From: a virus
Length of the DNA: 37,160 bases
Reading direction: 5' to 3' (one strand)
Virus record (IMG/VR): IMGVR_UViG_3300031576_000990
Location: 1 to 37,160 of that record
Part shown: one piece after another, positions 163-28,572 of the stretch
Position numbering within the stretch: position 1 is the first letter of the stretch
How the letters are laid out: the number at the start of each line of letters is the position of its first letter
Program-made: the position numbers and the translations under genes
Notes under the pieces: model-generated
The model's database searches: none
What the model saw: the letters and a program-made list of their open reading frames with translations, nothing else
Told to the model about the DNA's origin: nothing

Positions 163-2733
163 ATGGGCAATAGCGCAAACAGCGTCAGCAAAATGTTTGA
201 CCAAAGATATTTGCCCGAGCCTTTACCTGAGACCGGTAATATTCAGAGCTTGGGCGATAGCTCCATTTTAACAAATGGGGTTTTTTCCTCGCCCAATTAT
301 GTGCCGCCGGCTCCGGGGAGCTCTAACACCGGCTCCGGCTGGAATATTGACGCTGACGGCACCGCAACTTTTTATAATATCGTGGCGCGCGGCAACATTA
401 CGGCGTTGACGGGGACAATCGGAGGCTGGGTTATTGCTGCAACCACTCTTTCCTCCTCCGGCAACGAGATTATTTTTGACTCGGCGAATAAGGTTATTAA
501 AGTCGGGACCGGGCCGGAAATTACCATTGACGGCGTTAATAAAAAAATAACGATCGGATCGCTTGGGCAAATTGTATTGGACGGCGCCAACAAGGTTATT
601 AACATTGGCTCCTCTAATGAAATTGTGTTGGACGCTTTAAATAAACGCATTAGCGTCGGCACCGCAAACGAAATTTTAATCGACGGAAACAATAAGCGGA
701 TCCGCTCAAGCAACTATTCCGCCGGCTTATCCGGTTTTACAATCGAGCCTGATTTGATCGAAGCGGAAAATTTATTTGCACGCGGCACTTTGCGCGGCGT
801 AACTTTTCAATATGATGTTATTTCAGCCGTCGGCGGTCAGCTGATCGTCGCTAATGCTGATACGCTCAATGTTGATATGAGCGCGCTGGACGCTTCGACC
901 CTGACGATTAAAGGTAATACCACTTTTGCCGTTAATGACATTTTATTGATTCGGGCGCAAAGTTCGCTTGGTATTGTCGAGGAATATTTGCGCGTAACCA
1001 ATATTGGCTCAGCTCCGACCTATACCGTGACGCGCGACTTGGCGGCTGCTTATGCTTCAAACTCCAATCCAGCTTGGAAGCTGGGAACGACTGTGGTTAA
1101 AGTGGGTAAAAGTGACGGCGCCTCAACCTACTCGGGCGGCTGGCTTCGTTTAATTGGCGAGGGATCTAACGCACCATTTTATTCAGTCTTTGCGCGGACA
1201 GGCGTAGCCTATAACGCTTACACGGAAGTCGTGCGCGTCGGTAATTTAAACGGAATTGGCGGAAATGTAACTGATACCTTTGGATTTTTTGCCGGCAACT
1301 ACTCAGCTGGGCAATATATGATGTATGACTCAGCTAATAATGTCTTAACTTTAATTGGTAGCTTTTCTATTAACTCAGCCTATACCGCCGCCTCCGCCAT
1401 AACAGCCGGTGATGTATGCGAACAGGGAACGAGTGCGAGCCAATGCCAAACACAAACGATTGACGATATTGCCTTGACCACCTTATTTGATATCTCAGCA
1501 CTTTCTTTGTGGTCCGCTCAATTTAAGATGTGCCAAATTAGCTCAATGACGTATGTGGGAGCTTACCAAACAAGCGCTAATAATATCGCGATTGTTACTT
1601 TTAGATACCAAAACGGCAAATTTATCCGCGGACCGGTCGACACTTCAACCATTACCGACGCCCGATCCCCCTATGACATTGTTGGTATTGTGCGCATTGC
1701 CTCAGACAAGGCTATGCTTATTTACAATTACAACAGCGGCGGCTCGTCCCTGCCGGCTTGCCGAGTTATTACTATCAACGCAGATTTTTCCACTACGATC
1801 ACAGCCAAGACGTCCTTTACCGGAATGAACGCCATGCAGACCAGTTATAAAGCGATCCGCATGGAGGATAATAAGGTAATGTTTATCCAGTCTCGAGCTG
1901 GTGACTTTGATATTGAAGCGGTTGTGATTACAGTTTCAGGCACAACGCCGACCGTCGGCACGCCTATTTCTTTTGCCGCTTCAAACCTTGGTGACGCAAT
2001 TTTAATTGATACGGACAAAGTGTTAGTCGTTTATGATAACTTAGCTCGAATTTTAAGCGTTTCTGGAACAACCATTACTGCAAACACGACTGCGACCGTT
2101 AAGTCTGATATTTATGGAAAACTAACTAAAGTTTCTACCACAAAAGCAGTTTATGCCTATGCTGATAACACGAATGTAGGCGCTAATGAAACAGGGCAGG
2201 CACGCGTCTTAAATGTCTCGGGAACAACCGTAACCGTCGGGACTGAATACCAATTTGTTAATAATGCGTTTGAAAATTCAGGAGAAAGCAGAGTGCGCAC
2301 CGCTTATTTTAGAAACAATCGAGGCTTTGTTTTATATCGGTTAGACAGTCCGGCCAACACAAATTTTTATGCTACTTATTATACAATCAGTTCATCTGAC
2401 GTTTTGAGTTATGACGCTAAAATTATTGCCGACTACGATATTGGATCAATTTATGAGGTTAATATTTTGGATAGCAACCTCGATTTCCAAACTGATTTTG
2501 ACGCCTTTTGGTTTACCCAAAATAAATATCTTGTTGGTATGTATTTCAGAGCTTCTAAAAAGTCGATTGGCGTTTCACCCTCGACCGTTGCCGCCGCAGC
2601 CAGCTTAAATCTTATTAACAAGGGTCTTGTTTCTGGCCTTTCGGGCTTTAGTGTTGGGCAAGAAATTCGAGATAAATTTGATAATAAAGTCATTGCAGTC
2701 GCTAAAACCACCACTTCGATTAATGTGGTATAA
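163..2733 (+). CDS. Large tail/baseplate protein with beta-repeat stem and propeller-like C-terminal half
   Basis: This is an 856-aa structural protein, probably a tail spike or tip component. After a short N-terminal segment, residues about 58-90 (ending TGTIGGWVI) resemble phage fibre attachment modules. Residues about 100-180 hold five tandem copies of an 18-residue unit of the form EIxIDGxNKxIxIG, as expected for an elongated beta-helical stem. The C-terminal half (about 430-800) contains repeated blocks such as KVLVVYDN..ARILSVSGTTIT and KAVYAYADN..ARVLNVSGTTVT, which look like beta-propeller blades. No signal peptide or membrane segment is seen. It lies between the 520-aa tail gene and the two very large late genes. 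There is no Shine-Dalgarno sequence; the leader is A-rich. Receptor or glycan binding is inference. Confidence 0.75.
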   Translation: MGNSANSVSKMFDQRYLPEPLPETGNIQSLGDSSILTNGVFSSPNYVPPAPGSSNTGSGWNIDADGTATFYNIVARGNITALTGTIGGWVIAATTLSSSGNEIIFDSANKVIKVGTGPEITIDGVNKKITIGSLGQIVLDGANKVINIGSSNEIVLDALNKRISVGTANEILIDGNNKRIRSSNYSAGLSGFTIEPDLIEAENLFARGTLRGVTFQYDVISAVGGQLIVANADTLNVDMSALDASTLTIKGNTTFAVNDILLIRAQSSLGIVEEYLRVTNIGSAPTYTVTRDLAAAYASNSNPAWKLGTTVVKVGKSDGASTYSGGWLRLIGEGSNAPFYSVFARTGVAYNAYTEVVRVGNLNGIGGNVTDTFGFFAGNYSAGQYMMYDSANNVLTLIGSFSINSAYTAASAITAGDVCEQGTSASQCQTQTIDDIALTTLFDISALSLWSAQFKMCQISSMTYVGAYQTSANNIAIVTFRYQNGKFIRGPVDTSTITDARSPYDIVGIVRIASDKAMLIYNYNSGGSSLPACRVITINADFSTTITAKTSFTGMNAMQTSYKAIRMEDNKVMFIQSRAGDFDIEAVVITVSGTTPTVGTPISFAASNLGDAILIDTDKVLVVYDNLARILSVSGTTITANTTATVKSDIYGKLTKVSTTKAVYAYADNTNVGANETGQARVLNVSGTTVTVGTEYQFVNNAFENSGESRVRTAYFRNNRGFVLYRLDSPANTNFYATYYTISSSDVLSYDAKIIADYDIGSIYEVNILDSNLDFQTDFDAFWFTQNKYLVGMYFRASKKSIGVSPSTVAAAASLNLINKGLVSGLSGFSVGQEIRDKFDNKVIAVAKTTTSINVV

Positions 2734-2766
2734 CAACTTTTCTAAATTTTAGTAGGATAAACCTAT

Positions 2767-5301
2767 ATGATTTCATGGTCCCAGTTACAGGGTGCAACCC
2801 TGCAAGATCTTCAAACAAAGCCGGAGCTTTTAAGCGCTTTGATTTCTGCCTATGGCGGTAGCGTCAATCCCCAGCAAATGCTTAGTTATTGGCAAAGCGG
2901 TTATCGCAACCTTGAGTCCGACAAAGGCTATGCCTTGCGCGGTATTGGTAATAGCGCTTATTTTGAGAGCGCCGCAGATAAATATACTAACTGGAATAAT
3001 CCGCAAAATCCGGCCGACCAAGCTGCGGCTTTTAAAGTCAGAGACGCGGCCTTAAAAGAATTGGACGATTATGTTAAAAACTGGCAGGCCAAAGGGATTG
3101 ATATTACTGACGACTCTAACTATAAAAATTATTATCGAATTTTTAACGGCAATATGACCGCACAAGAACGCGCGAGCCTTGACGCCTCAGGTAAGAACTT
3201 TTTAACCGGCCTTGGTCGTAACGGGCAAAATAATCCAGCTGGCAGTATCGTCTTGCCTAATGGTCAGACGATATCGCCTCTTGACCCAAATTATGGCCTC
3301 TACGCCAAACAAATGGGCATTACCCCCACAACTACCGCAAGTAAGCCAACCGGCTCTCCGGGGGCATATTATGGCCAAACACGAGATACTGCCTTAGAAC
3401 AGGAAAAAGCTAAGGAATTGGCCTCTTTTTTGGACTCTAAAAAAATTAATGGCAAAACTCTCAGACAGACAACTTCCGCAAAGGATTGGCCGACCTTGGT
3501 TAACGCCGTGACCTATGGCGGTTATTCAGCGCAAGATGTGGCCAATGATTTATTTAGCCGGGCAACCGGCAAGGGCGGCGGTATTGTTAATCCTAATTTG
3601 GCGCGTGATGTATGGATCCCTCAATATCAAAAATCACAGACGCCAACGCCAAAGTCGCCGACTGATGTTTCTACTTTTGGAAAAGGCTCAGCCTCTGATT
3701 TTAACTTGCCGTCAGGCGGAGCTGATAAAACAGGCAGCGCAACTTCGAGCTTCTTAGCCGGCTTAGATCCAATTTTAAAAAATCTTGATAGCTGGACGCA
3801 AGAATTAATCAAGGCGATTAACACGCCGACCGGTGCTGAGACTAACCAAAATGCGCTTTATAAACAGCTTTCAGACGCCATGGATACGCAGGCCACGAAA
3901 GGCGCCGCATTGTCAGCTGAGGAAAAGCGTTTAGGTATTGAGGCAAAAGTTAAGCAGCTCTCCGATCTTAATATTGAAATGGCAAGTAAAAAGGCTATGT
4001 ATGATCAGACGATCCAGTCGTTTGAAAATCAAGCCGCGCCTATGGGTTTCATTGTTGGCGAACAGCGCGAAACGCAGCGCACCGCTGCCATTGAGTTAGG
4101 CTCTCTTGCTTCTATGGCAACAGCTTTGCAGGGTAATATCACCATGGCCCAATCTTTGGCGCAGCACACGATTGATTTACAGTTTATGGATAATGAACAA
4201 AAAATTGAGAATCTAAAAACCTTGATTGATCTTAATAAAGATGTTTTGAGCCGTGAGGATAAGAAAAAAACCGACACTCTTAATTTGATTATTAAAGAGC
4301 ACGAAGCTCAACTTGAGGAAGATAAGACTAACAAAAAGAATGTTTACGATTTAATGATCGAAGCGGCACGCAACGGCGCTCCGGTTTCAACTTTGAAAGA
4401 AATGGTCGGTGCCAAAGACTCAATCGGCGCAATCGCTATTGGCGGTCGCTATTTGAAAGGTGCCTCAGGCAATTTGCCGGGTGCACAAGAATACAGCGAC
4501 TCAGAGGGTATGCGCACCGATCGTCATAATAATCCAACAGCTATGACAACGGCTGTGGCCGCCTCTCTTGGCTTAAAAGAGGGCGTTGATTATACAAAGG
4601 GCGATCCATTTACCAGTAGCGACGGAAAAACTTATTACACCGCTCGTTTTACAAATGACGGTGTTGCCACCACTATTAAGGCCCTTGATACTGCCGCCAC
4701 CGATCCTAAGCGCTCAGCGTTTTATACTGCCTCAGGCAAGCCGCGCTGGGCTTATACTGCTATTTCTGACGCTGATTGGTTAAAACTCAGCCCGGACCAA
4801 AAGAGCGATTATGTAAAAGCCATGTATAAGCAAGAGGGCGGAAATGGTAGCTTATTTGGCGAGAGTAATAACACCGGCACGACGATTGACTGGTCAACTA
4901 TTCCTGATTACACAACGGCGGCCGGAAAGAAAGAAAAATCAAAGCGCGAAACCGCTATCTTAAATAATTTGACCGCTCAGCGCGGCGAGGATAATTTTGT
5001 CAGCCCGGACGATTATAAAGCGGCTAAAACTGACTGGATTAATTCCGGCCTTGCTGCTGCCGGATCTGATTTTGATAAAGCAGCCGCTTACTTACGCAAC
5101 CCGAATAATAAAAGTTATCCTCTTGGCGGATCAGCTCCTAAAAAAGCCAAAACTGAAATGAGCAATGTTGAACTCTTACAAGAAAATAAAGATCAGGGAA
5201 TTTCGCGCGCTGACTCTAAAAAAGCCGGCTTTACCGACGCCGATTTGGATCAAGTCTATGGCAAAGAAGTAAAGAAGTGGTATCAGTTTTGGAAGAAATA
5301 G
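2767..5301 (+). CDS. Large virion protein, coiled-coil rich, possible ejection (internal core) protein
   Basis: This is an 844-aa soluble protein with no family I recognise. The N-terminal third is Q/N/Y rich, residues about 290-320 are low complexity (T/P/S/G), and residues about 340-530 are rich in K/E/Q/L and likely form a long alpha-helical coiled coil (segments such as EAKVKQLSDLNIEMASKK and IIKEHEAQLEEDKTNKK). The C-terminal half is polar and ends WYQFWKK. There are no membrane spans or catalytic motifs. It precedes the 1529-aa gene at a 22-nt gap. In podovirus-type genomes, pairs of large late proteins after the tail genes are often internal or ejection proteins, so that is the best guess. 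A tail-fibre or tape-measure role is less likely. Confidence 0.65.
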   Translation: MISWSQLQGATLQDLQTKPELLSALISAYGGSVNPQQMLSYWQSGYRNLESDKGYALRGIGNSAYFESAADKYTNWNNPQNPADQAAAFKVRDAALKELDDYVKNWQAKGIDITDDSNYKNYYRIFNGNMTAQERASLDASGKNFLTGLGRNGQNNPAGSIVLPNGQTISPLDPNYGLYAKQMGITPTTTASKPTGSPGAYYGQTRDTALEQEKAKELASFLDSKKINGKTLRQTTSAKDWPTLVNAVTYGGYSAQDVANDLFSRATGKGGGIVNPNLARDVWIPQYQKSQTPTPKSPTDVSTFGKGSASDFNLPSGGADKTGSATSSFLAGLDPILKNLDSWTQELIKAINTPTGAETNQNALYKQLSDAMDTQATKGAALSAEEKRLGIEAKVKQLSDLNIEMASKKAMYDQTIQSFENQAAPMGFIVGEQRETQRTAAIELGSLASMATALQGNITMAQSLAQHTIDLQFMDNEQKIENLKTLIDLNKDVLSREDKKKTDTLNLIIKEHEAQLEEDKTNKKNVYDLMIEAARNGAPVSTLKEMVGAKDSIGAIAIGGRYLKGASGNLPGAQEYSDSEGMRTDRHNNPTAMTTAVAASLGLKEGVDYTKGDPFTSSDGKTYYTARFTNDGVATTIKALDTAATDPKRSAFYTASGKPRWAYTAISDADWLKLSPDQKSDYVKAMYKQEGGNGSLFGESNNTGTTIDWSTIPDYTTAAGKKEKSKRETAILNNLTAQRGEDNFVSPDDYKAAKTDWINSGLAAAGSDFDKAAAYLRNPNNKSYPLGGSAPKKAKTEMSNVELLQENKDQGISRADSKKAGFTDADLDQVYGKEVKKWYQFWKK

Positions 5302-5323
5302 CTTTTACAAAAAAGGTTAATTT

Positions 5324-8300
5324 ATGGCATACCAGTCACTAATTCAAACCAAATTAAAAACCGCTACACCTCAGTTAAGTAGCCCTCGGAGCGGATCCCC
5401 CACCGGATACCGCTCGGTTTTTGGTGAGCAAAAAGAAACCCCGGCGCCCGTTGTTAATAAGCCAAAAACTTTTAAACTCTCCCCCACCTCCGGCGGCGGC
5501 GAATATTCAAAAATTAGTATTAATGTGCCAAATGTTGTGCCGCGCTCACAAGATGTTTTACCGGTTAAAGCCGGATATGAACGCGATCATATTCAACCGC
5601 ACGCTCTTGGCGGCACAAATAGCAAAGCCAATATTGAATATAAAGCCTCCCCTAAAGGCAAAAATGATTTAGAAACGCGCCAGCAGGGTAAAGTTAAAGT
5701 TGAGGACGAAGCAATCCGCTTATGGAAAGAGGGTAAGATTTCTTTGCCTCAGGCGCAATTAATGGTTATTCAAAAACAGCAAGATATTAAATTTCCCGAG
5801 CAGACAATCCGCGACTCGTGGGTTACTAAAGTCCCGGGTGGTGGTTTAGTTGATAAATTTACTAAGACGGTTACAAAAGCCGCTGACGCCGTGGTTACTA
5901 CTGCCAAAACTGTAGCGAATAAAGTTAAAGAAAAAGTGGCGCCGTCGCAGCCACTCTATGCTCCCCTCTCTACTGACCAAAAAGCGATTGAAACCGCAAT
6001 ACCGGGTCGCGTGATTGATAAGGGCCGTCCGATTTTACCCGGTCCGCGCGTTGATCCGCGAGAGGGTATCTCCGGCATGGCGACCGCAAAAAAAACTGGC
6101 GAGAAAGTCTTTAGCGGCACAAATGAAGATCTTGCTAAATATAATAAAGCGAAAGATACATTAACGTATGGACCGGTTGGTTTAGACGTTAAGATTCCAT
6201 TTATGCAAAAAGGCTTTACCTTACCGGAGGACTCCTTTAGCGAAATGGTTAAATCGACAATCGAGTTTCCTGAAAAAGGCTATAAGACCTTATCTGATAT
6301 TAACCTCCACTATGACAAATTCTTTAGTAAAGATATTGCCGGGCGCGAAGCCGAAAAAGAAAAGAAGCTCTATACCGTCGACACTTACCAGCAAGACCTT
6401 AAGCATTTAGTTGATCATGGGGTTAACCCTTTGGCTGCCGTGTTGCTTACAGCCTTTCAAGGTGCCGTTGATTTTTCAATTTTTGGAGATATTGCCGGCG
6501 CGCCATTAAAGCAGCTATCTAAACGCATTGCTGAAATTCCAGTCTCGCGTCAGCTGATCGCGTCGCTCACCTATAAAGATATTCAGGACATTACAGCCGG
6601 CAGAATTATTGACGAAGCTAAAATGGCTGCCTTTAAAAAACTTTCGCAAGACGGTGTCGATTGGGTGCCTTTGATTAAAAATGCCAAAAAGAACGGTGGC
6701 GAAATTATTGTTAACGGCGAGAAGCGAACCTTAGGAGATGTGTTGACCGAGCAATGGGGTCAGCTCAAAGAGACAGCTAAATTTGGAGCGGCTGATCAAA
6801 GCGGCTTTACTCGAAACCCTTTTTATAAAGACAGTCCGGTTGACGCAGGAAAAGAGGTTGTGCCTTACTCCCCGGCACGCTCGGGCATTGATACTGTTTA
6901 TCATGAAACAAGTGCACAATCAGCTCGTGATATTATTTTTGCTGGTATGGATAAAGCAGGTCTTAATGTAGCCTCAAACCCAGAGTTAGCTTTGGGTCAA
7001 GGTGGAAAAGGAGTAAAAATTGAAATTGATTCCTCACAAATAAATGCTCGAGGGATAAAAAAACCGGGGTCAGACTTTATTGCTTCACAGACAGGACAAT
7101 GGCCTGAATTTAGAGTTGATAGCGCACCTCATAACTTAGAGAATAGTGTAAAGAGCGTCACTTTTGATAATCCCCTCACGCCCAAAGGTGAACGAAGCTT
7201 TTTTGGATTACGAGAAAATTGGATCGCTACTAAAGAAGTTTTGCCTAATGGAAAAGTAAAATATAGTAATCCTAACCTTGTATCTAAGCCAGTTAAATTG
7301 ACGACCGACGGCCCTAACTTTGACGACCCAACTTCTCCACCGGCGCAACGCGCTCAGTATGAGCACTCAGTTTTGGACGAACTTGATCAGGCGGCTAAAG
7401 GCAAATTGCCAGCTGCCGTTAATTGGCTTCCTCGGGAAATTAGAAATAAGGCTGTGGCTGCCTCTGTGGGAGAACATTTAGTCAAAGGTGATATTCCTAC
7501 CAATCCAGCTGAAAAAGTCGCTTATGAGGCCGCACGGGCCGAAATTGAAGCCTTTAATGAGGGGGTTACAGCTGTTAGGGCTGATCTTGCCGAAGCTGGG
7601 GTTAATTTTGAGGATCCCCCTGAGGAAACTATCCAAAAAATTGATACACTAATAAATGAAACTATTAATGATCTAAAATCGTATGGTCAAACTTCCAAAG
7701 TTAACGCCGCTGAAACAAGCGTCGAGCAAGTCAAAGGTAAAAATCGTCAAGGAGCCGAAGCCAATAAAGACGGCAGTAGTATCGGCGAAATTATTAAACA
7801 GAAACACGGTGAGCTCCCAGCCGTTATTAAGAGCCAAATTGAGGCTGCTGGTCGGGTTAAGAAACAAGGTATCCCAACAGGCCCGGTAATGGCGCCACCA
7901 GCTCCTCCTACTCCGCCGGAAAATCCCGGTTGGTTTGCTGCAAAATTTGATAACCTTTCCCCGGATAAAAGAAAATTCGTTGAGCTTGCTAAAGCCGCTC
8001 GTAATCGGCTTCGTTTTGTATATGATATTAATTTTTTGGATCATTACGGGGAAGTAGGAAAAACGATTGCCAAGAAAGTAAGATCCGCCGAAAAATATGA
8101 GGCGATTGAAAGCTCTGCCGCGCTGGAAAAAGTTAATGTCGAATTAAGTAAGCTCGATCAAAACGATCTTGATAATTTTGCCAATTACGTTGAAAAGAAA
8201 AAAGACACGCCGGCGTCAGCCCAAGCAGCTGTGGACGCATGGCGCGAGGTTTCTAAAGAAATTGCTGATCAAGCACAGGAGCTTGGTATTAGAGTTTTTG

Positions 8301-9913
8301 ACGGATCTAATTATAGAGATTTTATCCCTCGTAAAAACTACTTCCCTGCCTTTTTAAAGCAAGACGAATTGGATCGTGTTTTATCTAATAGAGAAAATTT
8401 TGTTGATTTTATAAAAAAACAATCAGAGCTCACTGGTGAGGATCCGTGGGTTATTGAACGACGCCTATGGGATTTGCAAAGCAGCCGCAGCGATTTTTAC
8501 GGCCACCTTGAGCGTGCGCGCATGGCAAACTTGCCGGATCTGTTTTATGACCGTGATCCGCGCTCCGTGTTATCACAATATATTCCGGCCGCCTATCAGC
8601 GACTTGGAGAGTTTAAATATTTTGGTGAGGATAATAAAGATCTCGACAGACTGCTTTTCCAAGCCTCACTTGACGGCTATAAACACATTGAGGATCTTAA
8701 ACGCTTTGTGGATCGTATGAGTGGTCGCGAGCAGTTTTCTCCGTTAACTAAAAAGCTTTCCAATATTGCGCTGGCCTATAACAACGTCACCAAGCTTAGC
8801 CTTGTCGCCCTGACGAACCTTATGGATATTATGAAAGTATTTATCCGAACTAATATTTGGTCGACAATGAAAGGCGCGTATAAGGGTATGTTAACCAAGG
8901 AGGGCAAATCATTTTCTCGATCGGTTGGCATTGAGCAAAACTTAAAAGGCTATGCCGAGGAGCTTGGTTTAGGTGATAAATTCTACAAAATGACGGGCGC
9001 TAAATATGTTGAAACTTCATTGCGCCGCACTATGGCAAATGCTTCACGCAACTATGTGAAAATGTTGGCTAAAAACTTAAAGAAAAATCCGACCTCAGCA
9101 TTTTTGCGCCGTCGGCTCGAACAGTTTGGTCTTAACCCGGATAAAATTTTAGAAACCGGCCTAAAGGAAACTGATTTTATCGACGCCGCCTATCAGGCTA
9201 TTTCTGATACGCAGCCAATTAGCCGCCTTGATAAACCTTTTTATGCCATGTCTCCAAGTGGTAAGCTTCTTTACCAATTCAAAACTTATTTCTTTAAGCA
9301 GGGTCAATTTATTAGAAAATTTGTTTTGGGCGAAGCTCGGAAAGGTAATATGAAGCCGTTACTATTATTCTTAATTCTCGGTCAGGTAGCCGGCGAGGGC
9401 ATTGACGATCTTAAAGCATGGGTCCGTGGACGCCAACGCACGACCGACCTGTGGACTCGGGTAATCGAAAACTATATGTCCGGTATGGGCTTTGGTGTTA
9501 CGGCCGAGCTCTTTCAATCTATGTTGCAAGGGTCCTTTGGTGGAAATGTAGTTAGATTTTTGACCGGTCCGACTGTAAATGATTTTGAGAGCTGGACAAC
9601 CGGCATGATTGACGACGCTAAGAATTTATTAGATCCTAATAAACACCTTGTAGAAATAAAACACCCGATTAGCAAAGATACCTATCAGCCAAAAACATTG
9701 CGCCGCTTACTTGGTTATACGCCGTTTGTTGGTCCTTATATTGCAAACTATCTTTATCCGACTCGCGGCACTTATAGCACGCGCAAAATTCCGCTCGACG
9801 AGCAGCTGCTCTTACTTATGGACGAAGCTGGTCAGGAGAACTCGGCCAAAATTAATAAACCGGCCGCCAATAAGCCAAAGGCGAATAAGCCTAAATCAAA
9901 TACTCCTAATTAG
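5324..9913 (+). CDS. Giant multidomain virion/polyvalent protein (HNH-like and ART-like domains)
   Basis: This 1529-aa protein is the longest in the genome and probably enters the cell with the DNA (inference). Residues about 85-110 carry an HNH-like pattern (RDHIxPHALGGTNSxxN; D88, H89, N103). Residues about 520-640 start VYHETSAQSARDIIFAG and resemble ADP-ribosyltransferase-type toxin/effector domains (H/Y, then an NP..AL..GG segment and a KIEID strand). A proline-rich linker (PAPPTPPENPG, about 860) leads into a long helical region (880-1480) resembling domains of large phage polyvalent proteins, with a hydrophobic stretch near 1342-1356 that could cross a membrane. The tail is a low-complexity K/N/P run. 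The ART-like part has more AT-rich codons than its surroundings. The stop overlaps, tail to tail, the convergent gene at 9910. Confidence 0.7.
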   Translation: MAYQSLIQTKLKTATPQLSSPRSGSPTGYRSVFGEQKETPAPVVNKPKTFKLSPTSGGGEYSKISINVPNVVPRSQDVLPVKAGYERDHIQPHALGGTNSKANIEYKASPKGKNDLETRQQGKVKVEDEAIRLWKEGKISLPQAQLMVIQKQQDIKFPEQTIRDSWVTKVPGGGLVDKFTKTVTKAADAVVTTAKTVANKVKEKVAPSQPLYAPLSTDQKAIETAIPGRVIDKGRPILPGPRVDPREGISGMATAKKTGEKVFSGTNEDLAKYNKAKDTLTYGPVGLDVKIPFMQKGFTLPEDSFSEMVKSTIEFPEKGYKTLSDINLHYDKFFSKDIAGREAEKEKKLYTVDTYQQDLKHLVDHGVNPLAAVLLTAFQGAVDFSIFGDIAGAPLKQLSKRIAEIPVSRQLIASLTYKDIQDITAGRIIDEAKMAAFKKLSQDGVDWVPLIKNAKKNGGEIIVNGEKRTLGDVLTEQWGQLKETAKFGAADQSGFTRNPFYKDSPVDAGKEVVPYSPARSGIDTVYHETSAQSARDIIFAGMDKAGLNVASNPELALGQGGKGVKIEIDSSQINARGIKKPGSDFIASQTGQWPEFRVDSAPHNLENSVKSVTFDNPLTPKGERSFFGLRENWIATKEVLPNGKVKYSNPNLVSKPVKLTTDGPNFDDPTSPPAQRAQYEHSVLDELDQAAKGKLPAAVNWLPREIRNKAVAASVGEHLVKGDIPTNPAEKVAYEAARAEIEAFNEGVTAVRADLAEAGVNFEDPPEETIQKIDTLINETINDLKSYGQTSKVNAAETSVEQVKGKNRQGAEANKDGSSIGEIIKQKHGELPAVIKSQIEAAGRVKKQGIPTGPVMAPPAPPTPPENPGWFAAKFDNLSPDKRKFVELAKAARNRLRFVYDINFLDHYGEVGKTIAKKVRSAEKYEAIESSAALEKVNVELSKLDQNDLDNFANYVEKKKDTPASAQAAVDAWREVSKEIADQAQELGIRVFDGSNYRDFIPRKNYFPAFLKQDELDRVLSNRENFVDFIKKQSELTGEDPWVIERRLWDLQSSRSDFYGHLERARMANLPDLFYDRDPRSVLSQYIPAAYQRLGEFKYFGEDNKDLDRLLFQASLDGYKHIEDLKRFVDRMSGREQFSPLTKKLSNIALAYNNVTKLSLVALTNLMDIMKVFIRTNIWSTMKGAYKGMLTKEGKSFSRSVGIEQNLKGYAEELGLGDKFYKMTGAKYVETSLRRTMANASRNYVKMLAKNLKKNPTSAFLRRRLEQFGLNPDKILETGLKETDFIDAAYQAISDTQPISRLDKPFYAMSPSGKLLYQFKTYFFKQGQFIRKFVLGEARKGNMKPLLLFLILGQVAGEGIDDLKAWVRGRQRTTDLWTRVIENYMSGMGFGVTAELFQSMLQGSFGGNVVRFLTGPTVNDFESWTTGMIDDAKNLLDPNKHLVEIKHPISKDTYQPKTLRRLLGYTPFVGPYIANYLYPTRGTYSTRKIPLDEQLLLLMDEAGQENSAKINKPAANKPKANKPKSNTPN

Positions 9914-11761: not shown

Positions 11762-13348
<1,587 letters not shown>

Positions 13349-21893: not shown

Positions 21894-22805
21894 ATGAGCT
21901 CAATCACTACTGGCCTGACTCAGTTGATGATGATCTTTTACAGCAAGGTGTTTTTGGCCCGTGCCGAAGCGGATCTCCGCTACGACTACGGTGCTCAGAA
22001 GCGTAAGCACCCAACCAACAGCGGTAAAACCGTTTACTTTAACCGGTTTTCTCCTTTGGCGGTTGCTACCACGCCATTAACGGAAGCGGCTATGCCGGGC
22101 GCCGTTGATATGACAAGTAATATTGTCAGCGCGGTCATTGCTGAATATGGAACATACACTAAAGTCGGCTCTCTCTTTGAGTTAACCTCTATCGACGAGA
22201 ACCTCAAAGAGCATGTTGAGACAATGGGTCAAAATGCCGCTGAAACCTTAGACACGCTTATTGCCGCCGAATTGTCAGCTAACGGAACCGTCGTTCTCGC
22301 AGGCGCAAAGTCTGCCTTAACTGCCGTTGCCGCTACTGACATTTTGTCGGGCGCCGAAGTTCGTAAGCAATTACGCACTTTGCGCCGTGCCAAGGCTAAG
22401 CCATTTGACGACGGAATGTTTCGAGCAATCGTCCCTGTGTCTGCTTCTTACGATTTGCGCGGTAACACGGAATGGGTTAACACCCAGTTGTATGTCAATC
22501 GAGACTCGATCTTGAAAGGCATTATCGGTCAATTCCACGGCTTTAACTTTGTTGAAACCAATAACGAATCAACCGAAGCTTCAACCGTAACCGTCTACCA
22601 CTCGTTCTTCTTCGGTGCTAACGCCTACGGGACCCTAAATCTCGAAGGACAGCCCGACTCAAGAATTTACGTTAAGAACCCGGGTGATAATGACACCTCT
22701 AACCCTTTGAATACTTGGTCTACTGTGGGTTGGAAAGCGTTTTTTGTTGCCAAGATCCTTAACTCGAGCTGGGTCAATGTTCTCAAGTCCGGCGCAACTG
22801 CTTAG
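21894..22805 (+). CDS. Major capsid protein, N4-gp56 family
   Basis: A 303-aa protein matching the N4-gp56 family of HK97-fold capsid proteins by pattern: YSKVFLARAEADLRYDYGAQKRKHPTNSGKTVYFNRFSPLA broken over 16-56, PLTEAAMPG, the EYGTYTKVGSLFELTSIDEN segment (84-104), and VPVSASYDLRGNTEW later. There is no obvious cleaved pro-domain. It builds the icosahedral shell. A 71-nt pseudoknot RNA follows its stop. Probably the most abundant phage protein, and a plausible client of the phage GroEL/ES (inference). Confidence 0.88.
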   Translation: MSSITTGLTQLMMIFYSKVFLARAEADLRYDYGAQKRKHPTNSGKTVYFNRFSPLAVATTPLTEAAMPGAVDMTSNIVSAVIAEYGTYTKVGSLFELTSIDENLKEHVETMGQNAAETLDTLIAAELSANGTVVLAGAKSALTAVAATDILSGAEVRKQLRTLRRAKAKPFDDGMFRAIVPVSASYDLRGNTEWVNTQLYVNRDSILKGIIGQFHGFNFVETNNESTEASTVTVYHSFFFGANAYGTLNLEGQPDSRIYVKNPGDNDTSNPLNTWSTVGWKAFFVAKILNSSWVNVLKSGATA

Positions 22806-22810
22806 TAGTT

Positions 22811-22881
22811 AGCGTTTGGAGTATCGCTTGAATGGCTTGGACTGCCACACCATTTAAGCGATTACAGTCCCTCTAAACGCT
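22811..22881 (+). ncRNA. Pseudoknot RNA downstream of the capsid gene
   Basis: P1 pairs 22811-22821 with 22871-22881 (11 bp, one G-U). P2 pairs 22823-22835 with 22850-22862 (13 bp, one G-U) and closes a 14-nt loop. Loop bases GGACUG (22839-22844) are fully complementary to CAGUCC (22865-22870), which lies between the 3' arms of P2 and P1. All 71 nt are used in an enclosed H-type pseudoknot. It begins 6 nt after the capsid stop and ends 33 nt before the next start. I do not recognise it as a known ribozyme or riboswitch class. Confidence 0.75.
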
Positions 22882-22914
22882 CCTCTTTGAGCTCATAGAA
22901 AATTAATTTATTCT

Positions 22915-23211
22915 ATGACAAGACTTGATTTTGAGAAAAAGATTAAAAAGGAAATTGACCAGCATTTAAATGTTAAGGTCCACCCCCAAAATCTTGATGT
23001 TGCCGGCGTGTATTACAATGATATTTATATCTGCGCAATTCCGTCCGGTGACATTTACGAGGAGCGAAACCCTAATTATCAAGACGCGGTGGGCAATGTG
23101 CACCGTCCAATTCCCGAAGCGATCGCTATGATCGGCGGCTTTATTCACCAAGTCAAAAACGACCCTGAGTTTTTGGAACTTATGACAGAAAAACCCGACG
23201 CGGTTGTTTAG
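22915..23211 (+). CDS. Hypothetical protein between capsid and glycan genes
   Basis: 98 aa, no family recognised. The N-terminal helix is charged (DFEKKIKKEIDQHLN), followed by a beta-rich middle (VAGVYYNDIYICAIPSGDIYEE) and a helix (PIPEAIAMIGGFIHQVKND). No membrane span. Its position suggests a head-completion or decoration role, but nothing in the sequence proves it. It ends 1 nt before the first glycosyltransferase start. Confidence 0.65.
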   Translation: MTRLDFEKKIKKEIDQHLNVKVHPQNLDVAGVYYNDIYICAIPSGDIYEERNPNYQDAVGNVHRPIPEAIAMIGGFIHQVKNDPEFLELMTEKPDAVV

Positions 23212-23212
23212 T

Positions 23213-24151
23213 ATGCGCGTCTTACTGCAAAACCGACCAGCTGAATTATGGACTGGCGGCGATCAGATCCAATTAGAACAAATCCAAAAGGCTTTAGTAA
23301 AAAAAGGGATAGGGGCTGACTATAATGGTCAGCCCGTTATCTCGCCGGCCTTTCTCATGAGCCAATACGATATCGTCCACCTCTTTAATTTCTCAATGCT
23401 GTGGACCAAGTATCAGCTATGGGTTGGGAAAAAATGGAAAAAGCCAGTTGTATGCTCTATGATTTACCATGAGTCTGACGCCTTTATCCCCTATGACCAG
23501 CAGCAAATTATGCTCGATAGCCTCGACGCGGCGCTCTTTTTGGCGCCGGGCGAGGTGGAGAGGGTGAGGCGTCATTTAATAATCCCCGACGAAAAGATAT
23601 TTTTTGTCCCTAATGGAATTGACCCCTTTTGGTTTAATCCGGTAACGGTCGACGAGGGTGTTATGCAGTCAGGCTTTATTCTGACGGTCGGCCGGATCGA
23701 GCCGTCAAAAGGGCAGCTCGCCGTAGCGAAAGCCTGTATTAAACTTAATGTCCCCTATATCTGTATTGGTGATGTGGTAGACAATAGCTATAGAGCGCTC
23801 TTAGACGGCCTTGGAGCGATTATATTGCCCCGAATGGGACCGGAGGACCTAATTAAGTTTTATGCCTCATGTGGGGTTTTCTGTTTGGCCTCACGGGCCG
23901 AAGTAATGCCACTCTCGGCAATGGAAGCCGGCGCGCAGGGAGCGCCGATCGTTCTAACCGACCATTGCGAGTATAAAGATATCCCGGGCGTGCATTGGGT
24001 CGAATTTGAGAATGTGGATAAGATTGTGGAAAAACTAAGGCTTGCTCTTTTGGGTGGAAAAAACTTACAATGGAGGGAACAGCTTAGATCAATGACATGG
24101 GACAAGGTCGCTGACCAGCTGATTACGATTTATGAATATTTTACTATATGA
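23213..24151 (+). CDS. Glycosyltransferase, GT4-like (GT-B fold)
   Basis: 312 aa from the ATG at 23213, preferred over an in-frame TTG at 23204 that would overlap the previous gene. The N-terminal half is a Rossmann domain (LLQNRPAELWTGGDQIQLEQ broken, YDIVHLFNFS), and the C-terminal half has the GT4 hallmarks FILTVGRIEPSKGQ, FVPNGID and the EX7E motif in EVMPLSAMEAGAQGAP. It transfers a sugar from a nucleotide sugar to an unknown acceptor. First gene of a seven-gene glycan block; its stop overlaps the next start (ATGA). Confidence 0.88.
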   Translation: MRVLLQNRPAELWTGGDQIQLEQIQKALVKKGIGADYNGQPVISPAFLMSQYDIVHLFNFSMLWTKYQLWVGKKWKKPVVCSMIYHESDAFIPYDQQQIMLDSLDAALFLAPGEVERVRRHLIIPDEKIFFVPNGIDPFWFNPVTVDEGVMQSGFILTVGRIEPSKGQLAVAKACIKLNVPYICIGDVVDNSYRALLDGLGAIILPRMGPEDLIKFYASCGVFCLASRAEVMPLSAMEAGAQGAPIVLTDHCEYKDIPGVHWVEFENVDKIVEKLRLALLGGKNLQWREQLRSMTWDKVADQLITIYEYFTI

Positions 24152-24843
24152 TTAAGCAAAAAAAGTCTGCCAAAAGTGCACAACCTGTTAACTCTGTGGA
24201 TAACGAGACTAAGCCGCCAAAGTTGTCCACAGCTCCTAAACAGGAAATCCCCAAAGAGTTAGACTCTAAACAAATTGCCGAGGTTGGATTTTGGAAAGGA
24301 CTGTATGCGCAGATACCGGACTATCGAACCTTTAGGCACGAGGACGGCCGCGCCAAAATGAAAATCTTTACTGATTTGCCTAATCGTGAGGGTCAAGGTT
24401 TAGATGTGGGCTGTGGCTTAATTTCAATATTTGAGCGCTTTTCCAATACCGTTGTGGCGATTGATCCCTTGGTGGCAGAATATCGAAAAATTGCCGATAT
24501 GCCGGACACCGAACGTGTCAAATATCTTTGTGCTTCGGGTGAGAATATTCCTTTTGAGGACAACCACTTTGATTATGTGTGTTGTGTTAACGTGATAGAT
24601 CATACCCCTCACCCTAAAAAAATGGCTGAGGAAATTGCGCGCGTTTTAAAGCCGGGCGGATTGCTCTTTTTTGAGGTTAATTTTGACGATAACTTGGCGC
24701 CGCCGCATTACTTCTTATGGGATCAGGATATAGTCGCCGAACATTTTAAAGATATTTTGACGCTCAAAAGCAAGCACACCGAGCGAAACAATGTAGATTT
24801 TCAATATCTCTTTCACGCGATCTATGAAAAACCAAACGCCTAA
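24148..24843 (+). CDS. SAM-dependent methyltransferase, class I (Methyltransf_11-like)
   Basis: A 231-aa protein with motif I LDVGCGLISIF, a post-I acidic end (VVAIDPLVAEY), ASGENIPFEDNHFDYVCC, and ARVLKPGGLLFFEVNF, all in the family order. The first 35 residues are low complexity (Lys/Ser/Pro/Thr), and the DNA encoding them holds two DnaA-box-like 9-mers. It probably methylates a sugar or carries out a related modification within the glycan block (inference). It overlaps both neighbours (4 and 20 nt). Confidence 0.85.
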   Translation: MIKQKKSAKSAQPVNSVDNETKPPKLSTAPKQEIPKELDSKQIAEVGFWKGLYAQIPDYRTFRHEDGRAKMKIFTDLPNREGQGLDVGCGLISIFERFSNTVVAIDPLVAEYRKIADMPDTERVKYLCASGENIPFEDNHFDYVCCVNVIDHTPHPKKMAEEIARVLKPGGLLFFEVNFDDNLAPPHYFLWDQDIVAEHFKDILTLKSKHTERNNVDFQYLFHAIYEKPNA

Positions 24844-25516
24844 TCCGGTTAGATCACATTTTCCTCGGTTTTCAATTTTAATGCCGACCTTTAATCGGCC
24901 GCAGTTTATTCAACAAGCCGTAGGCGCAATTTTAAACCAAGACTTTCAGGACTTTGAATTGATTATCAAGGACGGCGGCACCTCGATTGAGAATTTGTTG
25001 CCAAAAGACGATCGCATTATTTATATCCACGGCAAAGACTCAGGTATTACCGAGGCTATAAACCGCGCAGCTGCGGCAGCGTCCGGCGATATTCTTAACT
25101 GGTCCAATGACGACGATTTAATGGCGCCCGGAGCTCTTTTTATTGCGGATCATTTTTTTAAAAATGTCCCGAGTATAAAGTGGCTCTATGGATTAATCAC
25201 CATGAAAAATTTTGAAACCGGTGAGGAAATGACCTTTGGCAAACCATGGGATTATAACGAGCTTAAGCAGCACAATATCGTGCCGCAGCCCTCAGTCTTT
25301 TGGCGCTCTGATATCATGGACGAAGTCGGCCTCTTTTCTGAGGATCAGGATTTAACGAGTGATTATGAATTTTGGTTGAGGCTTGGTAAGCTCTATACTC
25401 CGGCTTTTTTAGATCGCATTATGGCAACCTACCGGATCCACCCGGGACAAATAACTATTGCACGCCAAGCTGAGCAGCTGGCTCAGGCGGAAAAAACTAA
25501 AGAGAAATATGCTTAA
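24824..25516 (+). CDS. Glycosyltransferase family 2 (GT-A fold)
   Basis: 230 aa. The GT2 start FSILMPTFNRPQFIQQAVGA (16-35), the DFELIIKDGG strand, HGKDSGITEAINRA, and the metal-binding DDD (96-98, in NWSNDDDLMAPG) are intact, as is the acceptor-side segment PQPSVFWRSDIMDEVGLF and the SDYEFWLRL motif. It transfers a sugar to a growing glycan at the cytoplasmic face. It overlaps the preceding methyltransferase by 20 nt and the next gene by 8 nt. Confidence 0.9.
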   Translation: MKNQTPNPVRSHFPRFSILMPTFNRPQFIQQAVGAILNQDFQDFELIIKDGGTSIENLLPKDDRIIYIHGKDSGITEAINRAAAAASGDILNWSNDDDLMAPGALFIADHFFKNVPSIKWLYGLITMKNFETGEEMTFGKPWDYNELKQHNIVPQPSVFWRSDIMDEVGLFSEDQDLTSDYEFWLRLGKLYTPAFLDRIMATYRIHPGQITIARQAEQLAQAEKTKEKYA

Positions 25517-26096
25517 GTTATCTCTTGATCAATTACCGGCCTTTGGTTTCTTTGTTGAAATTGGAGCGCATGACGGCGAGATTAATTCCTATACGTCTGA
25601 GCTGGCTGATAAAGGCTGGAAAGGCTTATACGTTGAGCCTATCCCTGAATTTTATGAGCGCTGCCGCGATAGGCATTTGCACAATAAAAATATCGAGGTT
25701 AAAAATTGTGCAGTCGGTCCAATCCACGGAAAGTTAAAGCTCTTTGAGAGTGGCCAAATTACGACAGCTCGCGAGGACGTTAAAGCGCTGTGGGAAAAAG
25801 AAAAAATGAGGGATTTTTGCCCAATGCCTGAATGGCGCGAGGTTATAGCTGATATGATTACTATGGACCAGCTTGTTGGTTTAGTGCCGATTGATTTACT
25901 GGTTATTGATACCGAGGGCATGGAGGCTGATGTGTTATCAACTCTAAAAACCAAACCTAAAATGGTTGTGATCGAGCTTCACGCCCAAAGCAAATTATGG
26001 GAGGAGATCACTTATTCCCCGTCTCTTTATGAGTTTTTTACCGACTATGATAAAGTGGCCGAGGACGATACTGATACACTTTTTGTTAGAAAATAA
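25509..26096 (+). CDS. FkbM-family methyltransferase
   Basis: 195 aa from the ATG at 25509. A longer frame from 25458 would intrude further into the GT2 gene. The family motifs are FVEIGAHDGEINSYT (motif I), LYVEPIPEFYERC, NIEVKNCAVGP, and LLVIDTEGMEADVLSTL near the C-terminal third. FkbM enzymes usually O-methylate sugars or polyketides; here a sugar hydroxyl is likely, given the neighbours. Methylated terminal sugars commonly cap glycan chains. Confidence 0.87.
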   Translation: MLKLSLDQLPAFGFFVEIGAHDGEINSYTSELADKGWKGLYVEPIPEFYERCRDRHLHNKNIEVKNCAVGPIHGKLKLFESGQITTAREDVKALWEKEKMRDFCPMPEWREVIADMITMDQLVGLVPIDLLVIDTEGMEADVLSTLKTKPKMVVIELHAQSKLWEEITYSPSLYEFFTDYDKVAEDDTDTLFVRK

Positions 26097-26099
26097 CCT

Positions 26100-26993
26100 A
26101 TGAAAATTTTAATCACCGGGAATAAAGGTTTTGTTGGTAGCCACTTTCAGAGATATCTTTTGGATCAAGGTCATGAAATTTTTGGCGTTGATATAAAAGA
26201 CAGCCACGAAAGATATCACGATTGCCGCGACTTTTTTCGCCATGATCCTAATAGCTTAATTGTTTGGGATATGGTTATTCATTGCGCCGCTATTGTTGGG
26301 GGTAGAACAAAAATAGAAAATGACCCAATCAGCGTGGCAACCGATCTTTCGATCGACGCCGAGATGTTTAACTGGGCGGTGCGCACCAAACAAAAGCGAA
26401 TTATTTATTTTTCCTCCTCGGCGGTGTATCCGGTAGAGCTACAACGCTTTAAGGTCCAGCTTAAAGAGGCTGATGTTAACTTCGAACGGATTAAGGCGCC
26501 GGATATGACCTATGGCTGGGCTAAACTGACCGGCGAATTTTTGGCGCAATTTGCGGAGCAAGCCGGCGTCCGGGTGCATATCTTTCGGCCGTTTTCCGGT
26601 TACGGTCCGGACCAAGATTTAGATTATCCTTTCCCGAGCTTTATTAAGCGCGGTGCCGAGCAAGCCGACCCCTTTGAGATTTGGGGAACGGGCGAACAGG
26701 TCCGGGACTTTATTCATATTGACGATATTATTGCCGCTGTTATGAAAGCCGTTGAAATTGACTTTAAAGGGGCAGTTAACCTTGGGACGGGTAAAGCGAC
26801 GAGTTTTGACGAATTAGCTCGTCTAGTGGCTTCTGTGGCCTCCTACGAGCCTAAGTTTAAGCGACTGCCCAGCAAGCCGGCAGGCGTAATGTATCGTGTG
26901 GCTGATACGACAAAAATGAGCCTATTTTATCAACCTAAAATTTCCCTTGAGGAGGGGATTAAAGAGGCTTTGCTATGGCGAAAAAACCAGTAA
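26100..26993 (+). CDS. NAD-dependent sugar epimerase/dehydratase (extended SDR)
   Basis: A 297-aa extended short-chain dehydrogenase. The nucleotide motif GNKGFVG (7-13) follows a leading beta strand. The catalytic Ser region FSSSAVYP (104-111), YxxxK (Y138-K142, YGWAKLTGE), RPFSGYGPDQD and the VRDFIHIDDI motif are intact. This pattern fits UDP-glucose 4-epimerase or GDP-fucose synthase-like enzymes; the exact substrate cannot be fixed. It makes an activated sugar for the neighbouring transferases. It overlaps the next gene by 19 nt. Confidence 0.88.
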   Translation: MKILITGNKGFVGSHFQRYLLDQGHEIFGVDIKDSHERYHDCRDFFRHDPNSLIVWDMVIHCAAIVGGRTKIENDPISVATDLSIDAEMFNWAVRTKQKRIIYFSSSAVYPVELQRFKVQLKEADVNFERIKAPDMTYGWAKLTGEFLAQFAEQAGVRVHIFRPFSGYGPDQDLDYPFPSFIKRGAEQADPFEIWGTGEQVRDFIHIDDIIAAVMKAVEIDFKGAVNLGTGKATSFDELARLVASVASYEPKFKRLPSKPAGVMYRVADTTKMSLFYQPKISLEEGIKEALLWRKNQ

Positions 26994-27385
26994 AAAATGA
27001 AAAACTAATCGAGTTAGAGCGTAAGCTTAAATTTTATGAGATTAATGACGAAATTTTTAAGTCCGGCTTAACTGTAATAACAGGCAAAGCCGAGGTTTAT
27101 CATGACTATATTTTAGAACGCTACGATCACGATTTTAAAGTAACAGGAACCGAGCAGGGCAGATATCATCATCTAACAAAAGAAAAAGATAATCTGAACC
27201 ATTTTATTATTTGGCTTCCTACCCTCAAGGTTAAAGATATGTTAACCTTAATTCATGAAGTCGGTCATTTTGTCTTTGACCTATTGGCTAATGAGAGAGG
27301 AGTGCCGCACACGAATGATACTGACGAAGTTTATGAATATTACCGAGAATATATTTTGAAATTAATTTTTGCAAAAGCCCCATGA
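26975..27385 (+). CDS. Small HExxH metalloprotein, zinc peptidase-like
   Basis: A 136-aa protein with a clear zinc motif HEVGH (94-98), followed by an acidic segment TNDTDEVYEYYREYI (113-127) that could supply the third ligand. Similar short HExxH proteins occur in many phages near head or tail genes and are of unknown function. Its reading frame is embedded in the glycan block (19-nt overlap before it, 4-nt overlap after it). Whether it cleaves protein is uncertain. Confidence 0.7.
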   Translation: MAKKPVKNEKLIELERKLKFYEINDEIFKSGLTVITGKAEVYHDYILERYDHDFKVTGTEQGRYHHLTKEKDNLNHFIIWLPTLKVKDMLTLIHEVGHFVFDLLANERGVPHTNDTDEVYEYYREYILKLIFAKAP

Positions 27386-28572
27386 AAAAACCAAGAATTG
27401 CCATGATCATGACTGATTGGGCACAAAACGAATATCGAAAAAAGAATAAAGCTTTTGGTGGTGTTAGTTATTACCGGATCGTGGCGCCGGCCAAGTTTTT
27501 AAATAAAGAAAAATACGATATTGATGTATTGGGAGCTGAGCTCTTAGAACAGGCCGAGGGTAAAGATATTGCCGGCTTTTATGTGGAGCTTGCTAAAAAA
27601 TATGATTTGATTTGGACGAAAGTTATTGATAATCCCCAAGCCGCCGCGGCTCTTTGTTTTGTTTGCGGTCATTATAAAATCCCCTTGGTGGTTGATGTGG
27701 ACGACAATTATTTTGAAACTCGGGCAGATCAACCGGGCCACCAAGTCTTTTCTATTGGCTCACAAAAACGCTCGATTGTGGGGGCTTTACTATCCTTAGC
27801 AAGCGCCATTTCCGTATCAACCGAACCGCTGCGTAAATTTTATTATGAGAGAATTTTAGCGGCGCACGGCGTTGAGAAAAAGTTTTTTGTTCTGCCAAAC
27901 TTGAATGATACCGAGGAGTTTAACTTTTTGCCGGTGCCTAAAAAAACTAATAAAATTGTGATTGGCTATGCCGGATCAATTACCCACTATAGCGATTTAA
28001 ATCTTGTCTTGCCGGTGTTGGCTAAGCTCATGAACCATTATATTAACCTTGAATTTGAGGTAATGGGTGCTGTGGAATTGGAAAAAATTAAGGAGCTCTT
28101 TGCCCCTCATGGTTTTAGTGCTGAGGCCCTTGATCGAGTCAAACTAAAAGGCGGATCTGAGGCGTGGGATAAATACCCGGAGCTTTTGGCTCAGCAAGAA
28201 TGGGATATTGGTATTGCGCCTTTAGTGGACGACGAATTTAACCGTGGTAAATCTCACATTAAATGGCTCGAATATGCTATGTATCGGATCCCGACCGTCG
28301 CCTCTAAGGTTTATCCCTATTACAAGCCAGTCGCCGGCCACGCGACAATCGAACACGGGAAAACAGGATTTTTAGCTGAGAGCCTTGACGACTGGTATAA
28401 ATCATTAACTGCTTTGATCGAGTCAAAAGCTTTACGAAAAGAGGTTGGTGATATGGCTTACAACTATATTGCGTCAACATTACAATATAAGGAGCACGCT
28501 TACCTTTGGGAGGCGGCAATAGACGACGTGCTCCTATGCAATTCAACGACACCACCCTTAAACAAGGATTGA
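27382..28572 (+). CDS. Glycosyltransferase, GT4-like (second copy, distinct)
   Basis: 396 aa. The N-terminal domain holds YDLIWTKVIDNP and LVVDVDDNYFE. The C-terminal domain begins IVIGYAGSITHYSDL, and contains NRGKSHIKWLEYAMYRIPTVASKV, TGFLAESLDDWYKSLTALIE and KALRKEVGDMA, the typical C-terminal signature of a GT4/GT1 subgroup frequent in Patescibacteria and phages. It is unlike the first GT4 gene in sequence and length, so it probably adds a different sugar or linkage. The 3' end overlaps the connector gene by 37 nt. Confidence 0.88.
   Translation: MKKPRIAMIMTDWAQNEYRKKNKAFGGVSYYRIVAPAKFLNKEKYDIDVLGAELLEQAEGKDIAGFYVELAKKYDLIWTKVIDNPQAAAALCFVCGHYKIPLVVDVDDNYFETRADQPGHQVFSIGSQKRSIVGALLSLASAISVSTEPLRKFYYERILAAHGVEKKFFVLPNLNDTEEFNFLPVPKKTNKIVIGYAGSITHYSDLNLVLPVLAKLMNHYINLEFEVMGAVELEKIKELFAPHGFSAEALDRVKLKGGSEAWDKYPELLAQQEWDIGIAPLVDDEFNRGKSHIKWLEYAMYRIPTVASKVYPYYKPVAGHATIEHGKTGFLAESLDDWYKSLTALIESKALRKEVGDMAYNYIASTLQYKEHAYLWEAAIDDVLLCNSTTPPLNKD

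Follow-up and report, generated by a model that had tools for sequence, protein, structure and literature searches.

What structure stands between the capsid gene of an uncultured phage and the gene that follows, and what might it do for the capsid message? The question is raised by the record IMGVR_UViG_3300031576_000990, the whole 37,160 nt of which were analysed here and are called the window. Behind its major capsid gene, which ends with a tandem TAG TAG, lies a short RNA of three interlocking helices. Here, we compare that RNA with the corresponding region of related phages and weigh the roles that it could have.

A pseudoknot behind the capsid gene

The element occupies positions 22811-22881 (+) and consists of an outer stem, P1, enclosing a hairpin, S1, whose loop pairs with the 3′ junction as a third helix, S2 (Table 1). 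P1 has 11 bp and S1 has 13 bp, each with one G-U pair, and S2 joins the S1 loop to the bases separating the two 3′ arms through 6/6 Watson-Crick pairs. Only 5 nt separate the capsid stop from P1, and a further 33 nt lie between P1 and the ATG at 22915. The initial annotation had described this geometry (calling S1 P2, and noting the full complementarity of GGACTG and CAGTCC) accurately to the base, and its placement between the two genes agreed with our re-reading of the coordinates.

Table 1. Features of the capsid gene region, in coordinates of the window
Feature	Positions	Strand	Sequence or support
Major capsid protein gene, 303 aa, ending in TAG at 22803-22805	21894..22805	+	phrog_1357 major head protein, E 7.8e-57
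P1, 5′ strand	22811..22821	+	AGCGTTTGGAG
S1, 5′ strand	22823..22835	+	ATCGCTTGAATGG
S2 (pseudoknot), 5′ strand, inside S1 loop	22839..22844	+	GGACTG
S1, 3′ strand	22850..22862	+	CCATTTAAGCGAT
S2, 3′ strand, in 3′ junction	22865..22870	+	CAGTCC
P1, 3′ strand	22871..22881	+	CTCTAAACGCT
Separate 8-bp AT-rich hairpin, downstream start codon in 3′ arm	22893..22918	+	Fold; TCATAGAA/TTCTATGA
Downstream gene, 98 aa, class A	22915..23211	+	Start codon 33 nt past P1

The nested part of the structure (P1 and S1, folded within 22795-22925) had a minimum free energy of -47.5 kcal/mol and a z-score of -7.5, with 0/200 shuffles as low. A scanner purpose-written to find an H-type pseudoknot within an outer stem, in which energy is stacking in kcal/mol, scored the whole element at -52.5, against -26.4 for the best dinucleotide shuffle (0/200 reaching the native value). 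When P1 and S1 were held fixed and the loop was shuffled, the loop-junction match that forms S2 had a p value of 0.001. Both strands of the whole window were scanned, and no second site came near this structure in quality. The separate hairpin over the downstream start codon was absent from the start regions of relatives, and so was excluded from the conserved element.

Elsewhere in the window, a phage-encoded GroEL chaperonin of 526 aa is found at 11762-13342 (-; Cpn60, E 2e-71), for which no match was present among 20 related records searched, several being fragments. Three very large ORFs of 856, 844 and 1529 aa, without Pfam or PHROG match, lie within 163-9913, and a cluster of glycosyltransferases, a methyltransferase and a nucleotide-sugar epimerase occupies 23204-28572, just past the capsid region.

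One architecture with divergent sequences

Relatives were collected from IMG/VR via the window capsid protein, and the DNA 3′ of each capsid stop was read; most of these sequences are metagenomic fragments. Counting the window, 28 distinct loci have the same architecture behind the capsid stop, built from stems of unrelated sequence. Copies measure 55-74 nt in total, with median P1/S1/S2 lengths of 8/9/8 bp and median L1, L2, L3 and outer gaps of 4, 3, 1 and 0 nt (L3 ranging over 0-3 nt, the outer gaps mostly 0-1). GATTGT/..AATC is frequent in P1, as in the copy at L137 (P1 GATTGTT/AATAATC; S1 TGTCACCC/GGGTGACA; S2 CTCGTTATG/CATAACGAG), and S1 and S2 are almost without sequence conservation. 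The element occurs once per genome, at the capsid gene, in the window, in eight pseudoknot genomes that are whole or nearly so, and in two shorter contigs, the copy of G012 being counted through locus L140.

The genes that follow are of two main classes, A and B, which profile comparison showed to be mutually unrelated. The class A protein found no family match, and a fold search with both classes returned nothing significant. Since the pseudoknot is kept across these unrelated downstream classes, it is tied to the capsid gene's end.

As the stems share little sequence, whole-element MAFFT alignments and automatic pairwise mapping gave unreliable results and were dropped; support for the pairing therefore comes from per-locus shuffles, conditional tests of S2 and a few gap-free comparisons. 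All 15 of the 15 copies tested beat every one of their 200 dinucleotide shuffles. Because P1 and S1 could bias the structure search, S2 was also tested alone, with P1 and S1 fixed and the loop shuffled, and p fell below 0.05 in 26/27 loci (combined p 1.9e-41, which is not a strict probability, the loci being related by descent). Loops paired with the junction of their own locus at a mean energy of -13.2 kcal/mol, compared with -5.4 across loci. Where the strands of a locus differed in folding, the mRNA strand folded better in 22 loci and the minus strand in 3. A pattern search of IMG/VR with the letters of P1 and S1 yielded 119 unrelated chance loci, and in the resulting 1.9 Mb of unrelated viral background (counted as strand-bases) hits of comparable energy turned up sporadically, for the most part where the sequence was GC-rich or repetitive.

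Compensatory changes, which the initial annotation had predicted, were found in two comparisons: the S2 helices of L239 (TTCACTCC/GGAGTGAA) and L243 (TTCGCTCC/GGAGCGAA) differ by one compensated pair, and L142 and L143 differ at two stem positions with pairing retained at both. Pairing maintained despite sequence change identifies the element as a conserved structural RNA. The pseudoknot structure computed at 22811-22881 is real, and its shape is kept.

How the three helices sit together in space is less straightforward. L3 spans only 0-3 nt and S1 has 7-13 bp, dimensions that make a classical coaxial pseudoknot look sterically unlikely; the helices must therefore be arranged otherwise, or not all be fully formed simultaneously. 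S1 may fray, or S2 may form only transiently, above all in the window copy.

The dimensions of the helices also bear on whether the element is a processing site, at which an RNase III-like enzyme would cut the long stacked helices, split the messages and leave a structured capsid 3′ end. T7 has intercistronic sites of RNase III-type processing. P1 and S1 together make about 14-27 bp of near-continuous duplex, and a site separating a gene of presumably high expression from its neighbour suits such cleavage; however, single helices are short for RNase III (P1 down to 6 bp, S1 to 7 bp), a plain hairpin would suffice for cleavage, and the conserved S2 would need some other reason. We consider a processing site improbable.

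Exchange with intrinsic terminators

Of the 58 capsid genes that form a well-supported clade, 28 are followed by the pseudoknot, 1 by a weak pseudoknot (L241, energy -30.5, kept as uncertain), 29 by an intrinsic terminator and 0 by neither, with the pseudoknot of L219 (which has a G.G mismatch in P1) and the terminators of L151, L169, L173 and L212 assigned by eye. The initial annotation had named homologous phages with the same capsid gene and no conserved pairing as evidence against the element. Such phages were found in part: about half of the relatives lack the pseudoknot, and every one of them carries an intrinsic terminator in its place, which fits a role at the capsid 3′ end or as a boundary.

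On a careful tree, a minimum of about 8 switches between the two states is required, and 6 independent pairs differing in state survive on well-supported branches. The pseudoknot is probably the older state, because it is carried by the deepest lineages (L239, L243, L245 and L249) and by the window's own group, on a tree whose root was placed for drawing only. Beyond the clade, relatives of the capsid among cultured phages were distant only, and the regions read showed terminators, other hairpins or none; terminators are annotated after the capsid gene of Bacillus phage poppyseed and Paenibacillus phage API480. A search of genome contigs for capsid relatives found only one, distant, in a Christensenella MAG.

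A TTATCCACAG-like sequence, resembling a DnaA box, stands just past the capsid stop in 14/29 terminator loci (for example L134, L150, L158, L166, L186 and L139) and in 1/28 pseudoknot loci, and TTATCCACA is over-represented in the window, G001, G003 and G004, with 3-4 occurrences against about 0.4 expected. Additionally, a tRNA with anticodon TCA (UGA-reading) is predicted at L192:13349-13420 (+), in the L129 phage genome.

Transcription and translation across the element

At terminator loci, a TATAAT-like -10 commonly lies 6-9 bases before the next start, as in a leaderless promoter. Such a -10 ahead of the next gene was seen in 14/25 terminator loci versus 1/21 pseudoknot loci (Fisher p 3e-4), an association that was not significant once corrected for descent (median p 0.25, with 2.8 pairs in favour and 0.1 against). 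An exception, recognized by eye, is L231, where TATAAT falls between the pseudoknot and the start. At five other loci (L146, L153, L154, L172 and L219), a -10-like sequence sits just 5′ of the pseudoknot, and polymerase must therefore cross the pseudoknot to reach the next gene. The capsid gene and its neighbour share a strand, are separated by short gaps and, judged by sequence, mostly have no promoter before the second gene. The simplest reading is that RNA polymerase transcribes through the pseudoknot, which would act in the RNA.

Termination of the transcript was among the functions first proposed for the element. No U-tract follows P1 or S1 in the window, where P1 is followed by CCTCTTTGAG, or at the other pseudoknot loci, so that an intrinsic terminator, a GC-rich hairpin with a U-tract, is rejected as its identity. 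A non-canonical terminator or attenuator is a different matter: the knot would pause polymerase and cause partial or factor-dependent termination, giving a high ratio of capsid to downstream message. The roughly 8 exchanges with intrinsic terminators at the same place speak for such a device, as does L231, where pseudoknot, -10 and start succeed one another exactly as at terminator loci. Against it stand the lack of a U-tract after P1, the promoter-like -10 just 5′ of the pseudoknot in at least 5 loci, the lack of an alternative promoter for the next gene at most of the others, and the ordinary intrinsic terminators used elsewhere in the same genomes. Termination is disfavoured on these grounds, and we regard a non-canonical terminator or attenuator as rather unlikely. 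The other functions first proposed, namely protection of the capsid mRNA 3′ end, processing of the transcript and control of the capsid/downstream ratio, are plausible.

The strongest rival to a barrier against mRNA decay is translational: the knot could insulate or repress, stopping ribosomes that have finished the heavily translated capsid gene from scanning on and re-initiating at the next start, or masking that start until the knot is unfolded. Distances from the pseudoknot run from -1 to 53 nt to the capsid stop and roughly from -4 to 48 nt to the next start, and in many loci no more than about 10 nt separate that start from P1, or P1 contains it. P1 reaches the next start, overlapping or abutting it, in L131, L144, L239, L243, L137, L140 and L236, and overlaps the capsid stop in L225. 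Shine-Dalgarno motifs are near background in the window, G001-G006, G008 and G009 (0-18 percent, versus 82 percent in Pagevirus); with no usage above background, initiation must therefore rely on open starts or re-initiation. Together with the leaderless TATAAT promoters past capsid terminators, these background-level motifs also suggest a host without Shine-Dalgarno use. The same distances, however, vary widely for a translational device, the element is common to unrelated downstream genes, and a terminator takes its place. Insulation or repression accordingly seems doubtful to us, for all that it is the best of the alternatives.

Comparison with known RNA classes

The initial annotation recognized no known class in the element, and the Rfam search that it called for bears this out: with 4227 models at the gathering cut-off, no match was obtained in the window or in 14 relatives, and a permissive scan of the element gave only a chance snoRNA match (E 2.6). 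A literature search, with most subscription journals outside its coverage, found no description. A -1 frameshifting pseudoknot, which calls for a slippery heptamer within the ORF 5-9 nt upstream, is rejected, as the element lies past the capsid stop and no such heptamer was seen in the window; stop-codon readthrough, as the stops are tandem in the window and the distance is variable elsewhere; and a ribozyme or riboswitch, as there is no conserved core.

Several described systems resemble it in part. The Mu-gpT-DE motif (Rfam RF03012) is a structured RNA associated with the Mu-like major head gene and so, like the present element, is tied to a phage major head gene, but its model did not match. 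In T7, the terminator T-phi follows gene 10. An intrinsic terminator after the capsid gene shares the position of the pseudoknot, is interchanged with it in the clade and likewise structures the 3′ end of the capsid RNA. The pseudoknot differs in its three helices, in its lack of a U-tract and in apparently being read through. The stabilizing stem-loops between cistrons of malE-malF (REP) and of the puf operon are closest to the behaviour that we propose for the pseudoknot, a read-through element whose upstream part outlives the downstream part, but they are plain hairpins rather than a conserved phage pseudoknot. Phage T4 has another mRNA pseudoknot, the autoregulatory one of gene 32, which is likewise untranslated and close to a start codon. 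That knot precedes the gene it regulates and is a binding site of gp32, whereas the present knot is 3′ of the capsid gene and precedes unrelated genes. The mRNA targets of gp32 have been treated elsewhere (PMC535899).

Flaviviral xrRNAs are compact viral folds whose hairpin loop pairs with bases beyond the 3′ side of the stem, and folds of this type are able to halt bacterial RNase J1 in vitro (PMC5760640). The likeness is one of principle only, in that the loop pairs with bases immediately 3′ of its own stem. xrRNAs require conserved core nucleotides and a ring, whereas the phage copies have no invariant loop or junction nucleotides, hence no xrRNA-type core, and have an enclosing outer stem.

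A candidate decay barrier

A terminator hairpin and a read-through pseudoknot both close the capsid cistron with a stable structure, and for this reason a barrier to decay is our best-supported guess. We propose, tentatively and at somewhat less than an even chance, that the element is a post-transcriptional RNA boundary at the capsid cistron 3′ end, most likely of this kind. RNA polymerase would transcribe through it, and in the mRNA the H-type pseudoknot closed by its outer stem would form a mechanically stable knot. The knot would stop ribonucleases, mainly 3′-to-5′ exonucleases coming in from the downstream side and perhaps 5′-to-3′ enzymes too, so that the capsid and following messages would decay independently and the capsid segment persist. 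An intrinsic terminator, which likewise leaves a hairpin at the capsid mRNA 3′ end, could substitute, the next gene then usually having its own promoter. Structure, its comparative support, position, uniqueness and terminator exchange are computed; the nuclease barrier and its direction are what we infer. Several points weigh against the decay barrier. Where a promoter precedes the pseudoknot, the element would double as the 5′ leader for the gene behind it, and this, like the start codons near or inside P1, would suit a translational role equally well. The promoter-terminator association lost its significance on correction for descent, and the short L3 is hard to square with a classical fold.

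A bolder version would make the element the DNA-phage counterpart of xrRNAs, a sequence-free knot defined by shape only, blocking bacterial exonucleases from one or both sides, demarcating the capsid mRNA and evolutionarily interchangeable with a terminator plus promoter. This is an unlikely extension of the decay-barrier proposal.

Significance

The element is probably a previously undescribed device marking the end of the capsid message, and apparently represents a family of structured RNAs not described before. Within a large clade of uncultured phages, it is present in every sampled member that has no terminator behind its capsid gene. Its repeated exchange with terminators amounts to a natural experiment on the requirements of a capsid message at its 3′ end. 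If the knot does block ribonucleases, it would offer a stability part for bacterial mRNA that is compact and independent of sequence, and would be the phage parallel of the xrRNAs of eukaryotic viruses.
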